From positions 1 to 37,725 of the forward strand of contig CAIVEI010000148.1 in the NCBI GenBank assembly GCA_903904835.1: DNA of 37,725 nt, read 5' to 3'. The stretch's first letter is position 1. Each line of letters starts with the position of its first letter. Source of the stretch: an uncultured Schlesneria sp. (GTDB taxonomy: Bacteria; Planctomycetota; Planctomycetia; Planctomycetales; Planctomycetaceae). The position numbers and the translations under genes were made by a program. Shown in pieces: positions 24,453 through 27,478 of the stretch. Under the pieces are notes generated by a model that was not told the origin of the DNA, did no database searches, and was given only the letters and a program-made list of their open reading frames with translations.

Positions 24453-24479
24453 GATTTGCGTATCGCCAAGGAAAGAATC

Positions 24480-25424
24480 ATGGACGAGCAACTTGGTCAC
24501 GAACAGTCCGCTCCAGAACCGTCACGACGACGGCTTGGACGTGGCTTGAACGCTTTGATGGGAACTGCGTCCATCGGTGGAACCGATGAGGCGAATACTT
24601 CCAGTCAAACAGAAATCTCCGTCGAACTGATCGAACGAAATCCATTTCAGCCGAGGCAGGATTTTGATCAGACCGCCATCAATGAATTAGTGGATAGTAT
24701 TCGTATCCACGGTGTTTTGCAGCCGCTTCTTGTTCGAGCGACTGGTGACGGCTACCAGTTGATCGCAGGTGAACGACGATTGATTTCGGCCAAGAAAGCC
24801 GGCCTGAGCCAAGTCCCGTGTCGAGTTCTCAGCCTCACGGATCAACAAGTCAGCGAAGTCGCGCTCGAAGAAAACCTGAAGCGTCAGGATCTGAATGTCC
24901 TCGAAAAAGCGATCGCGTTTCAGGACTACCTGAAACGATTCGGCTGCTCGATCGAAGACCTGGCCCGTCGACTGTCGTTCGAACGGTCTACGGTCAGCAA
25001 CATGCTCCGACTTTTGGAACTTCCGGAAGCCGTAAAAAATGACCTTCGCGCTGACAGGATCAGTGCAGGACATGCTCGTGCCTTGTTGGCTCTGAAGAGC
25101 GAAGAGGCTCGCATTGAGCTTTCTCAGAAAATTCAAAAAGAAACTTTGTCTGTTCGAAAGACGGAAGAAGCAGTTCGGGAACTGATCGCCCCGAAAGACG
25201 CGGACGTCGTCCCATTCCCCACTTCTGAAGAAAAAACGGCGACTGCTGCTGTCAGCCATACATCGCATATCGCCGGACTTCAGAATCAACTGCGTGATTG
25301 GCTGGGTGCAAACGTTGAAATCAAGCTTTCAGGTAAAGCCAAGGACAAAGGAAAGATTGTTATTGATTTCGGGTCAAATGACGATTTCGAGCGAATCGTC
25401 GGCAAATTACAGCGAGCCGCATAA
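24480..25424 (+). CDS. parB: Chromosome-partitioning protein ParB (CTPase, parS-binding)
   Basis: ParB loads on parS sites, slides as a CTP-clamp and spreads to form the segregation complex, which ParA moves. The N-terminus carries LGRGLNALMG (19-28), the ParA-interacting motif. The CTPase/nuclease-fold domain spans about 45-120, with NPFQPRQ and GERR (97-100). ENLKRQDL (131-138) follows, and a helix-turn-helix reads SIEDLARRLSFERSTVSNML (about 157-176). The C-terminal leucine-rich end dimerises. The ATG at 24480 has AAGGAA about 7 bases upstream (314 residues). No parA is adjacent. A perfect parS begins 15 bases after its stop, which confirms the assignment. Confidence 0.96.
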   Translation: MDEQLGHEQSAPEPSRRRLGRGLNALMGTASIGGTDEANTSSQTEISVELIERNPFQPRQDFDQTAINELVDSIRIHGVLQPLLVRATGDGYQLIAGERRLISAKKAGLSQVPCRVLSLTDQQVSEVALEENLKRQDLNVLEKAIAFQDYLKRFGCSIEDLARRLSFERSTVSNMLRLLELPEAVKNDLRADRISAGHARALLALKSEEARIELSQKIQKETLSVRKTEEAVRELIAPKDADVVPFPTSEEKTATAAVSHTSHIAGLQNQLRDWLGANVEIKLSGKAKDKGKIVIDFGSNDDFERIVGKLQRAA

Positions 25425-25438
25425 TTCTGCCAAGTTTT

Positions 25439-25454
25439 TGTTTCACGTGAAACA
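25439..25454. promoter_or_regulatory. parS: parS site 1 (canonical)
   Basis: TGTTTCACGTGAAACA is identical to the 16-bp chromosomal parS consensus known from Bacillus and many other phyla. It lies 15 bases after parB and 47 bases before tRNA-Pro, in noncoding DNA. As a palindrome it has no strand. Confidence 0.95.
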
Positions 25455-25500: not shown

Positions 25501-25575
25501 CGGGATGTAGCTCAGCTTGGCTAGAGCGCCTGGTTTGGGACCAGGAAGTCGCAGGTTCGAATCCTGTCATCCCGA
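25501..25575 (+). tRNA. tRNA-Pro (anticodon TGG)
   Basis: A full cloverleaf can be drawn. The acceptor CGGGATG (25501-25507) pairs with CATCCCG (25568-25574), with discriminator A at 25575. The D-arm is GCTC...GAGC. The anticodon stem CCTGG/CCAGG holds loop TTTGGGA with anticodon TGG. The T-arm is GCAGG TTCGAAT CCTGT. The CCA end is not encoded. It reads proline codons, mainly CCA and CCG. Spurious reading frames over it are noted under rejections. Confidence 0.97.
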
Positions 25576-25584
25576 CAATTCTCA

Positions 25585-25624
25585 AAATAAGCAGGCGGCT
25601 CGGGTACGAGCCGCCTGCTTATTT
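25585..25624. terminator. Bidirectional intrinsic terminator
   Basis: An 18-bp perfect stem (25585-25602 with 25607-25624) closes a GGTA loop. The core is GCAGGCGGCTCG with its complement, flanked by AAATAA/TTATTT, so each strand ends in a short T-rich tract. It starts 10 bases after the tRNA and ends the convergent oxidoreductase-methyltransferase gene, whose TAA (25619-25621) sits inside the right arm. Confidence 0.9.
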
Positions 25625-27376
25625 CGCTTCAGCGGTGTCGATTTCGTCGGGCTGCTGGTATTCACCTTTAGGGGGCATCAGCCGTTTCACGAGAAACAAC
25701 CTCGGTCCGGATCGTCTTCCAGGTTGGCTTTCAAATGTGCCCATTTCAAATTCCCTCTCTGGTAGTTCTTTAAGAACTTCCTCAACGACGCGTGCCTCGG
25801 AGACGCCACCGTCATGTCCGGTGTATGCGAGGATGGTTACGACGCCTCCAGGTCGCAGCAAGCTGACCGCCTGACGTATCCCATTTCGAGTCGAGTCACA
25901 CGTCGTCACGACCTGCTTGTCCGCCCCAGGCAAATAGCCGAGGTTGAACATCACCGCCGCGATCCGACCGTGAAGCTGCTTCGGGATCTCTGTCGCGAGC
26001 ACTGCGTGGTCTCGATTGATCAATACGACGTTTCTGATGTCGGCGTCTTTCAGCCGCTTGGCAGTGTTTTCGAGCGCCTTGGGTTGGACGTCGAAGGCGA
26101 AGATTGTTCCGTGTACTCCAACAAGTTCGGCAAGGAATTGAGTATCATGTCCGTTGCCCGCCGTGGCGTCGATTGCGACTTCGCCGACGCGAAGAACATC
26201 TCGAATAGCGTCGTGTGCCTGCATGGTGAAAGGGCGAACTTTGCTACGTTTCACGTGGCTGCTCAATGAAACGGATTCTTCACGAAACGCACCAATCGGA
26301 ATCGGTTGCGACTTCCATTTCGTTTTCTTGTTGAGGTCAACCGTCGAGTCAACTTGGCGACCTTCCATTAACATTCGCGCCATTTGATCGGCGAAGTAAG
26401 GCGCATGAAGAACGCCCTTCGAACCAAGACCATTGAAGCAGGCGATGCGCGGCTCAGCCGGTAGCCGCCCGAGAATTGGATATTGATTTCTATGTATGGG
26501 ACGAACACCCGCTTCGTGAGCGACAACTTCAAATGGTAATCGAAGAAATGAACTCAGCTTTTTTACGATTTCGTTTCGCCCATTTTCCGTGCAGGCACAG
26601 TCCAAAGTTTTCCAGTCGTAAGTCGATCCAGCTTTGAAGAGTTCTCCAGAGTACGGTACAAGCCAGACACCGTTGTGAACGACACGGCTCTCTTTCAGGC
26701 TGGGAATTCTGAGCGTCAAAATCTCACCCTTCGCGGGTTTAAATTGCACGTCCCGGAACCACGGGTTATTGATCGCTTCAAAACCTTGGCAGCAGACGAG
26801 TGTTTTTGACCTGACGCCGAGATTAGGTATGACAACCCCATCGTGGTCGATTCGCAAGTCACGTGAAACGTCGACGTCACTGGTGAGAAAGGCACCTTCA
26901 TCCGCGAAGATTCTCCGAGATGCATCCAAGTAGCCTGGCACGTCAAGCTGCCCCCCTTCGGACATCTCAAAACCGCCCGACGGATTGTCGAACCATTTCT
27001 CATTGACGAGTCGAACGGATTGGCTGACGATTCCAAAATATTCACCGGCATCCCAGCGGCGTTGAAACGTTGCGGCATCGACATCGTTGGCGAACAGTCT
27101 GACCATCGATCGTCGTGCAAAGAGTTGGGTTTTCGTTTCTTGTTGAACGCGACGATAGAATTCGATTGCGGTTGGCCAAAACTCATCGAACCTCCAGGAC
27201 TTGATCAGTTTTTGCCCTGTGATCGGCGTGACGAGTCCCGCTGCGATCCTTGACGAAGTTACAGCTTCCTGACGGTCGACAACAAGAAATCGCGAGCCAG
27301 CCCATCGAAGACACCATGCAAGCGACGTCCCCGCGATCCCCTGACCTAGAATGATGAAATCGAATTCAGATCTCAT
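25619..27376 (-). CDS. FAD-dependent oxidoreductase (MnmC(o)-like) fused to MnmM/YtqB-type methyltransferase
   Basis: This is a 585-residue two-domain enzyme. Residues 5 to about 345 form a DAO-type FAD oxidoreductase with IILGQGIAGTSLA (8-20), AAGLVTPITGQK (45-56) and a C-terminal GLGSKGVLHAPYFAD block. Residues about 380-567 form a Rossmann methyltransferase with DATAGNGHDTQFLA (403-416) and MFNLGYLPG (476-484), the signature of the YtqB/MnmM family that methylates 5-aminomethyl(-2-thio)uridine at tRNA position 34. In classical MnmC a related FAD oxidase domain converts the carboxymethylaminomethyl group to aminomethyl, and a different methyltransferase completes mnm5U. I infer that this fusion does both steps. 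ATG 27376 begins the FAD motif; a start at 27412 would read through a parS site. It lies within the parS cluster. Confidence 0.85.
   Translation of the reverse strand: MRSEFDFIILGQGIAGTSLAWCLRWAGSRFLVVDRQEAVTSSRIAAGLVTPITGQKLIKSWRFDEFWPTAIEFYRRVQQETKTQLFARRSMVRLFANDVDAATFQRRWDAGEYFGIVSQSVRLVNEKWFDNPSGGFEMSEGGQLDVPGYLDASRRIFADEGAFLTSDVDVSRDLRIDHDGVVIPNLGVRSKTLVCCQGFEAINNPWFRDVQFKPAKGEILTLRIPSLKESRVVHNGVWLVPYSGELFKAGSTYDWKTLDCACTENGRNEIVKKLSSFLRLPFEVVAHEAGVRPIHRNQYPILGRLPAEPRIACFNGLGSKGVLHAPYFADQMARMLMEGRQVDSTVDLNKKTKWKSQPIPIGAFREESVSLSSHVKRSKVRPFTMQAHDAIRDVLRVGEVAIDATAGNGHDTQFLAELVGVHGTIFAFDVQPKALENTAKRLKDADIRNVVLINRDHAVLATEIPKQLHGRIAAVMFNLGYLPGADKQVVTTCDSTRNGIRQAVSLLRPGGVVTILAYTGHDGGVSEARVVEEVLKELPEREFEMGTFESQPGRRSGPRLFLVKRLMPPKGEYQQPDEIDTAEAK
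25683..25698. promoter_or_regulatory. parS: parS-like site 2, inside the methyltransferase coding end
   Basis: CGTTTCACGAGAAACA matches the consensus at 14 of 16 positions and keeps both half-site cores except one base. It lies in the last codons of the methyltransferase domain, so coding constraint could also explain it, but its closeness to the other sites favours a real weaker site. Confidence 0.55.
26247..26262. promoter_or_regulatory. Partial parS-like site (left half)
   Basis: CGTTTCACGTG matches the left half and centre of parS, but the right half (GCTGC) does not. It lies between the two domains of the fusion gene (reads SSHVKRS in protein). ParB could bind it weakly; chance is also possible. 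Confidence 0.3.
26855..26870. promoter_or_regulatory. Partial parS-like site (right half)
   Basis: TCACGTGAAAC matches 11 consecutive consensus bases, but the left end (CAAG) is degenerate. It is coding in the FAD domain (VSRDL). It is a candidate half-site only. Confidence 0.35.
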
Positions 27377-27391
27377 GCAGTTATTTGGCTC

Positions 27392-27407
27392 CGTTTCACG
27401 TGAAACA
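27392..27407. promoter_or_regulatory. parS: parS site 3, next to the fusion gene start
   Basis: CGTTTCACGTGAAACA matches parS at 15 of 16 positions, and the inner 14-bp palindrome is perfect. It sits 16 bases upstream of ATG 27376 and its edge overlaps the likely Shine-Dalgarno (GGAG). ParB bound here could influence expression of the gene. Confidence 0.9.
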
Positions 27408-27462: not shown

Positions 27463-27478
27463 CGTTCCACGTGAAACG
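27463..27478. promoter_or_regulatory. parS: parS-like site 4
   Basis: CGTTCCACGTGAAACG matches 13 of 16 positions with the CACGTGAAAC core intact. It lies in the 169-base intergenic region between the fusion gene and the ThuA gene, 55 bases beyond site 3, so coding constraint does not explain it. Confidence 0.7.

Follow-up and report, generated by a model that had tools for sequence, protein, structure and literature searches.

Can a single planctomycete protein carry both steps by which carboxymethylaminomethyluridine at tRNA position 34 (cmnm5U34) becomes aminomethyluridine (nm5U34) and then methylaminomethyluridine (mnm5U34)? The question is raised by a gene in a 37,725-nt stretch of DNA from an uncultured Schlesneria sp. 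(assembly GCA_903904835.1, contig CAIVEI010000148.1, positions 1–37,725), referred to here as the window. A first-pass annotation had read the gene as an alternative MnmC, with a flavin adenine dinucleotide (FAD) oxidase fused to an MnmM-type tRNA methyltransferase, and had proposed that the same two-step enzyme was built twice. Our analysis confirms a real gene in which a glycine-oxidase-like flavin enzyme is joined to a known type of tRNA methyltransferase, the fusion being present in several genomes. In the reading that fits the sequence comparisons best, to which we assign a probability of roughly three in four, the one chain would turn cmnm5U34 into nm5U34 and nm5U34 into mnm5U34.

An enzyme of this kind had been anticipated. 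The MnmM paper states that the counterpart of MnmC(o), the oxidase half of E. coli MnmC, was unknown in organisms with MnmM, and that its authors expected an oxidase–methyltransferase fusion or operon and found none among the genes common to the three Gram-positive species compared (PMC9976899). The window gene is a fusion of the expected kind, with an operon-like form in relatives, and it points to a family of candidate enzymes that could supply the missing step in two phyla.

One reading frame and its two domains

The gene is one unbroken open reading frame (ORF) on the reverse strand at 25619–27376, encoding 585 amino acids and a stop codon, with its ATG at 27376. Pfam places DAO (PF01266) over residues 6–334 (1.5e-27) and PF06962 over residues 425–562 (8.5e-37), in keeping with the FAD domain followed by a methyltransferase that had been annotated and with a domain order reversed relative to E. 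coli MnmC. The methyltransferase had been called non-homologous to MnmC(m), the methyltransferase half of MnmC. This is too strong, both being class I enzymes; the difference in Pfam family stands, and PF05430 (MnmC(m)) is not among the 10 Pfam matches of the 585-residue protein. The parts of the gene are as follows.

25619..27376, minus strand: FOX–MnmM fusion gene, from ORF, translation and domains; full-length model with mean predicted local distance difference test (pLDDT) score 88.4 and predicted template modelling score (pTM) 0.68.
26327..27376, minus strand: FAD-dependent oxidase domain, residues 1–350 (FOX clade of the DAO/glycine-oxidase superfamily), from Pfam DAO, trees, column comparison and Foldseek; landmarks are GxGxxG as GQGIAG (11–16), Tyr253, Arg292 and Gly318-Ser319-Lys320-Gly321; domain model md33b455d9f85, pLDDT 87.7.
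26237..26326, minus strand: basic linker, residues 351–380, computed isoelectric point 10.57; pLDDT < 50 at 356–379 (predicted disordered).
25682..26236, minus strand: MnmM (YtqB-type) S-adenosylmethionine (SAM) methyltransferase domain, residues 381–565, from NF053511, phmmer, Foldseek and key residues.
25622..25681, minus strand: C-terminal tail, residues 566–585; pLDDT < 50 at 572–580 and 583–585.

The identification of the C-terminal half as MnmM holds. In the NCBIfam scan of the window protein it scores 177.6 bits against the MnmM equivalog NF053511 (cut-off 135) over residues 385–565, and it contains both DATAGNGHDT and FNLGYLPG; the same cut-off is passed by L051, L099, L010, L012 and L052 (L and G numbers are our labels for loci and genomes). 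Furthermore, phmmer against the PDB finds B. subtilis MnmM 8H0S at 1.1e-38, and Foldseek aligns the predicted structure with 8H0S chain A at a template modelling (TM) score of 0.93, normalised to the target. Mutants of the B. subtilis enzyme at K11, D34, N101, Y104, K110, Y141 and H144 are nearly inactive (PMC9976899). Six of these seven residues, D34, N101, Y104, K110, Y141 and H144, are identical in the fusion as D411, N478, Y481, K487, Y518 and H521, in an alignment made through B. spizizenii L020.

AlphaFold2 predicts two confident domains joined by the low-scoring residues 356–379, and the relative placement of the domains in the full-length model was left out of the interpretation.

Relationships of the oxidase half

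The FAD half belongs to a clade for which we coined the label FOX. In an 88-row tree the 40 FOX rows form a single clade (support 100/100), as do the 22 MnmC(o) rows, E. coli included (100/99). The branch that joins FOX with MnmC(o) against ThiO and other DAO proteins has a support of 94/88 in this unrooted tree and of 95/90 in a hand-picked subset of 46 rows; on these 46 rows the approximately unbiased (AU) test disfavoured FOX and ThiO as one clade (p-AU 0.0358). A position among the glycine oxidases, named beforehand as an outcome that would overturn the annotation, is not seen in the trees. For these trees 12 of 52 FOX rows were taken out as near-duplicates, and L141, L150, L160, L164 and L167 were also left out, together with L155 and, among 30 further loci added, the fragment matches L184–L187. 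L188 and L189, which the MnmC(o) model matched under its cut-off, grouped with ThiO and were counted as such.

The stems of FOX and MnmC(o) are both long, and in profile–profile comparison FOX lies at about equal distance from ThiO (1.8e-30) and MnmC(o) (1.3e-29). Hence we rate a common origin of FOX and MnmC(o) as possible. The FAD half falls outside the MnmC(o) clade and appears to be a distant MnmC(o) relative, perhaps its sister; the trees lean this way and the profiles do not decide. Clear independence from E. coli MnmC is therefore limited to the methyltransferase half and the act of fusion, and for these the idea of an enzyme built twice survives; the oxidase may share its origin with MnmC(o).

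At the residue level, six columns are specific to FOX and MnmC(o) (15, 142, 253, 274, 319 and 320, with gaps at column 15 in 8 of the 13 other-DAO rows) and one, column 46, to FOX and ThiO. The S-[K/R] pair at 319–320 and the aromatic residue at 253 are common to FOX and MnmC(o) and are not found in ThiO. Arg292 aligns with R567 of E. coli MnmC and with R302 of the B. subtilis-type glycine oxidase, which binds the substrate carboxylate; an arginine occupies this column in all FOX (40/40), MnmC(o) (22/22) and ThiO (13/13) rows. Moreover, R567 and G619 are listed in Table 2 of the MnmC paper (PMC3648344), and R567, G619 and S617-R618 of E. coli MnmC are matched in the fusion by R292, G321 and S319-K320, with lysine for arginine. 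R329 of ThiO (B. subtilis numbering) is arginine in 13/13 ThiO rows and serine in 38 of the 40 FOX rows. The oxidase groups could not be told apart by isoelectric point.

The nearest folds and sequences of known structure suggest a chemistry. The Foldseek search with the FAD-domain model is led by the iminodiacetate oxidase IdaA (rank 1), glycine oxidases and CmiS2 (rank 6), and a sequence search of the PDB likewise has CmiS2 as its best match (2.5e-15); IdaA and CmiS2 stood outside the trees. CmiS2 converts N-carboxymethyl-3-aminononanoate to the amine, with glyoxylate seemingly released (PMC11284099), and IdaA oxidises iminodiacetate and ethylenediaminediacetate (EDDA), giving glyoxylate from each cleavage (PMC7312458). 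For MnmC(o) itself, structural homology to glycine oxidase has been noted (PMC3648344). By analogy, removal of the carboxymethyl arm from cmnm5U34 would be the same kind of reaction as the CmiS2 and IdaA cleavages.

How independent this oxidase is can be read in more than one way. The FAD half may be a fast-evolved MnmC(o) orthologue, linked to MnmM after loss of MnmC(m), so that the reaction is the same and the oxidase was not invented twice. We regard this as a real possibility, somewhat short of even odds. The joining of FOX with MnmC(o) in both trees, the AU result and the six shared columns, as compared with one for ThiO, all speak for it, as do L052 and L099, which score slightly better against MnmC_Cterm than against ThiO. 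However, the trees give full support to FOX and MnmC(o) as two distinct clades, each on a long stem, the profiles place FOX about as near to ThiO, and the MnmC_Cterm cut-off is missed by the window protein and by all five FAD-bearing relatives that were scanned. Attraction between two long branches could produce the grouping, which moreover requires a root on the ThiO side.

That the FAD half is a ThiO-like oxidase of glycine, sarcosine or a similar small molecule, with the MnmM linkage incidental or a source of hydrogen peroxide or glyoxylate, we consider unlikely. ThiO (TIGR02352) is the best NCBIfam match of the FAD half, at 81.5 bits, and the nearest folds are amino-acid oxidases; in addition, 14 of 53 Verrucomicrobiota with a match have an oxidase-type gene without a detected MnmM, and in three of the Verrucomicrobiota tested (G318, G452 and G515) no match to ThiO was seen at 1e-15. 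Yet the ThiO cut-off of 250.8 bits is not reached, and the window's own genome encodes elsewhere a separate ThiO over that cut-off (279.3 bits), which makes a ThiO role unlikely for the FAD half. The replacement of R329 by serine and the recurrence of the MnmM linkage in two phyla point the same way, and identification as ThiO was rejected on these grounds.

Still less probable is a writer–eraser pair in which the FAD half demethylates mnm5U34 back to nm5U34. Sarcosine-oxidase-type enzymes N-demethylate amines, and relatives of this type appear among the fold matches, but the arginine of FOX that aligns with the carboxylate-binding one of glycine oxidase is invariant, which fits an N-carboxymethyl substrate, and the genome would then hold no known enzyme for the step from cmnm5U34 to nm5U34.

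Linkage of the two halves and other enzymes of the pathway

Eight further loci encode both domains in a single ORF, with 30–75% identity to the window protein: L003, L004, L005, L006, L007 and L010, all from Schlesneria metagenome-assembled genomes (MAGs), L051 in G291, a one-contig genome, and L099 in G515, a member of the Verrucomicrobiota. Among same-family genomes that have the pair, separate and overlapping neighbour genes are frequent (10 of 14), and an assembly or sequencing error could in principle join them; the fusion is not such an artefact of the window, because these other loci show it too, and we rejected that explanation.

In a survey of 294 Planctomycetota genomes (match threshold 1e-10, up to four candidates scored per genome), 20 had a match. 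Both halves occur in 14 of the 17 genomes of the window's own family and neither in the other 3. Two of the 14 pairs are fused (the window's own genome and G291), 10 are adjacent on one strand and 2 lie apart; the oxidase of G283, a 29% match, lies outside the tree. Outside the family, five Planctomycetota genomes have MnmM alone. G016 had appeared as the sole Planctomycetota genome with only the oxidase and was dropped from the counts, its domain scoring 249 bits against ThiO. In the adjacent pairs the oxidase stop overlaps the mnmM start by 4 bases (L052–L056 and L060) or by 7–13 bases (L057, L058, L061 and L062), assuming the first possible start codon.

Among 240 Verrucomicrobiota genomes, with up to five candidates scored per genome, 53 had a match; 39 have both halves and none has MnmM only. 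Twelve of the 39 pairs are adjacent or fused (G515 being the fused one); ten of these were verified as ORFs, and G496 and G532 were taken from coordinates. Linkage of the two halves thus spans two phyla. Seven of the 40 FOX rows come from fusions, and the oxidase tree requires at least four changes between the fused and separate states. The MnmM tree, from which 12 of 64 rows were removed as near-duplicates, does not separate FOX-linked rows from those of MnmM-only Planctomycetota (at least four changes) and therefore lends no support to co-evolution of the halves.

In L068 (G259), positions 1–2106, the MnmM domain ends a 701-residue open frame whose first 500 residues have no Pfam match at 1e-5; this may be another fusion or merely a long open frame.

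The gene beside mnmM differs in the outgroup loci L013–L039. Here ytqA (MnmL) lies directly upstream of mnmM in 9 of 27 loci and nearby in L024 and L036, the adjacent cases being labelled Bacillaceae, Caryophanaceae or Fictibacillaceae. Beside mnmM, the oxidase takes the place that ytqA holds in these loci. In one outgroup locus, L028, MnmM sits on a 9.5-kb contig from a Neisseriaceae MAG; an MnmC(o) over the cut-off is present in that genome as well (L172), suggesting contamination or transfer.

The remaining enzymes are distributed as follows. The window's own genome encodes MnmG (826 bits) and a full-length MnmE-like protein, the two companions that the first-pass annotation had asked after. 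It has no gene over the MnmC(o) cut-off (TIGR03197), no MnmC(m) match and no second MnmM over its cut-off, so that neither the intact MnmC nor the separate MnmM that had been named as contrary evidence is found. None of the 17 same-family genomes has TIGR01212 (MnmL/YhcC) over its cut-off. At the cut-offs used, the genome is thus without other known enzymes for both steps. Elsewhere TIGR01212 is over the cut-off in 3 of the 5 MnmM-only Planctomycetota, 4 of 4 relatives of the same class that have no MnmM match, 5 of the 14 oxidase-only Verrucomicrobiota and 8 of 20 genomes with neither gene (sampled from 187 non-matching ones). The negative association with the oxidase stands out in the window's family and is weaker in other groups; the model is an imperfect MnmL marker, since it also takes in YhcC, and a 24-row tree did not tell the two apart.

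Close to the fusion gene lie a parB gene with Pfam ParB domains (24456–25424) and a tRNA gene, the latter between parB and the fusion's 3′ end.

25501–25576: tRNA-Pro (TGG).

Four matches to the parS consensus stand at 25439–25454, 25683–25698, 27392–27407 and 27463–27478 (0, 2, 1 and 3 mismatches), where 0.25 are expected by chance and four were reached in 0 of 100 shuffles. One lies inside the 3′ end of the fusion gene and one just upstream of its start codon. An in-frame TTG occurs 36 bases upstream of the ATG; the codons it would add overlap the parS-like site, and the ATG at 27376 was therefore taken as the start.

Proposed reaction and comparison with known systems

In the proposed pathway, MnmE and MnmG would place the carboxymethylaminomethyl group on U34, and the N-terminal FAD domain would oxidise the Cα–N bond of the glycine-derived arm, its carboxylate held by Arg292. 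Hydrolysis of the imine would yield glyoxylate and nm5U34, which the C-terminal MnmM domain would methylate with SAM to mnm5U34. The linker, predicted to be flexible, suggests hand-over or rebinding of the tRNA in place of channelling. Both domains are present with their cofactor-binding and catalytic residues; the substrate, the product, the order of steps, the hand-over and the 2-thiolation status are inferences.

Several results weigh against this scheme. The FAD half scores 45.2 bits against the MnmC(o) model (NCBIfam cut-off 174.2) and the five FAD-bearing relatives 44.5–98.5 bits; MnmC is not among the best 50 Foldseek matches of the FAD model, and it stands at rank 47 with the full-length model. 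The MnmE-like protein, at 247.7 bits over positions 1–446, falls just short of its cut-off of 252.6, as do those of three tested same-family relatives. TIGR01212 occurs in 4 of the 39 Verrucomicrobiota with both genes, and in two of the five MnmM-only Planctomycetota (G071 and G107) neither candidate first-step enzyme was found. The 14 Verrucomicrobiota with the oxidase and no detected MnmM belong here as well; L112 and L125 (G318 and G453) are placed in the FOX clade and the other 12 are assigned by match alone, and, with at most five candidates scored per genome, some of the 14 may have an MnmM that went undetected. Loss, a missed gene or another partner methyltransferase could account for such genomes.

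In the methyltransferase half, K11 is replaced by His388; stand-alone MnmM of L013 and L024 also has histidine at this position. Furthermore, B. subtilis MnmM contacts U35 through Q176 and N178, within F-I-N-Q-Q-N, and alanine mutants at the U35-contact residues retain 20–60% activity (PMC9976899). No FOX-linked row (0 of 30) and no row from MnmM-only Planctomycetota (0 of 5) has the corresponding F-x-N-Q, the 35 rows being drawn from L003–L012, L051–L068 and L097–L116; of 17 other MnmM rows 10 have it, a few rows stopping before the site. Because 7 of those 17 also lack it and the alanine mutants keep part of their activity, we treat the motif as non-defining for MnmM. Outside the two phyla it is variable as well, and the pattern of its loss does not match that of the oxidase; in the MnmM of Planctomycetota and Verrucomicrobiota its absence may mean altered anticodon recognition.

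A wider prediction can be put forward tentatively, with less confidence than the two-step reaction itself: the FOX proteins of Planctomycetota and Verrucomicrobiota would form a family of their own that oxidises cmnm5U34 in tRNA. This family would have arisen from glycine-oxidase-like enzymes, without descent from MnmC(o) or the radical-SAM protein MnmL, and its partner, whether adjacent or fused, would be an MnmM of possibly changed anticodon recognition, the U35 contacts having been lost. The same two-step enzyme would then have been assembled a second time, from different parts. If true, a modification would clearly have persisted here through the replacement and renewed fusion of the enzymes that make it. 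Among the literature matches listed, no title or abstract opening describes an oxidase–MnmM fusion. The abstract of Jaroch et al. 2024 (J Bacteriol) reportedly mentions fusion proteins.

Compared with known systems, the FAD half has the DAO fold in common with ThiO, CmiS2 and IdaA, and the removal of an N-carboxymethyl arm as glyoxylate by CmiS2 and IdaA (PMC11284099, PMC7312458) resembles the step proposed here. These three enzymes differ in acting on small molecules, and R329 of ThiO is serine in the fusion.

The pathway through MnmL and MnmM is an alternative supply of nm5U34 to MnmM, with ytqA adjoining mnmM in nine loci. MnmL is a radical-SAM protein and no flavoprotein, and its marker is the one that no genome of the window's family carries over the cut-off. 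The name MnmL has since been given (PMC12548931, citing Jaroch et al. 2024).

B. subtilis MnmM (YtqB) resembles the methyltransferase half in equivalog score, fold and six of seven key residues. It is a stand-alone dimer (PMC9976899), whereas the window's MnmM is fused to an oxidase, has histidine for K11 and lacks F-x-N-Q; the Bacillus gene adjoins ytqA in the loci examined.

E. coli MnmC differs from the fusion in its domain order, in its methyltransferase (PF05430 against PF06962) and in its oxidase, since the FAD half of the fusion misses the MnmC(o) cut-off and does not fall in the MnmC(o) clade. The interface within MnmC is substantial and fixed (PMC3648344), and the linker of the fusion is predicted to be disordered. 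What the two have in common is an FAD half from one superfamily, bearing the arginine and G-S-[K/R]-G, and, as proposed for the fusion, the two steps from cmnm5U34 through nm5U34 to mnm5U34 on one chain.

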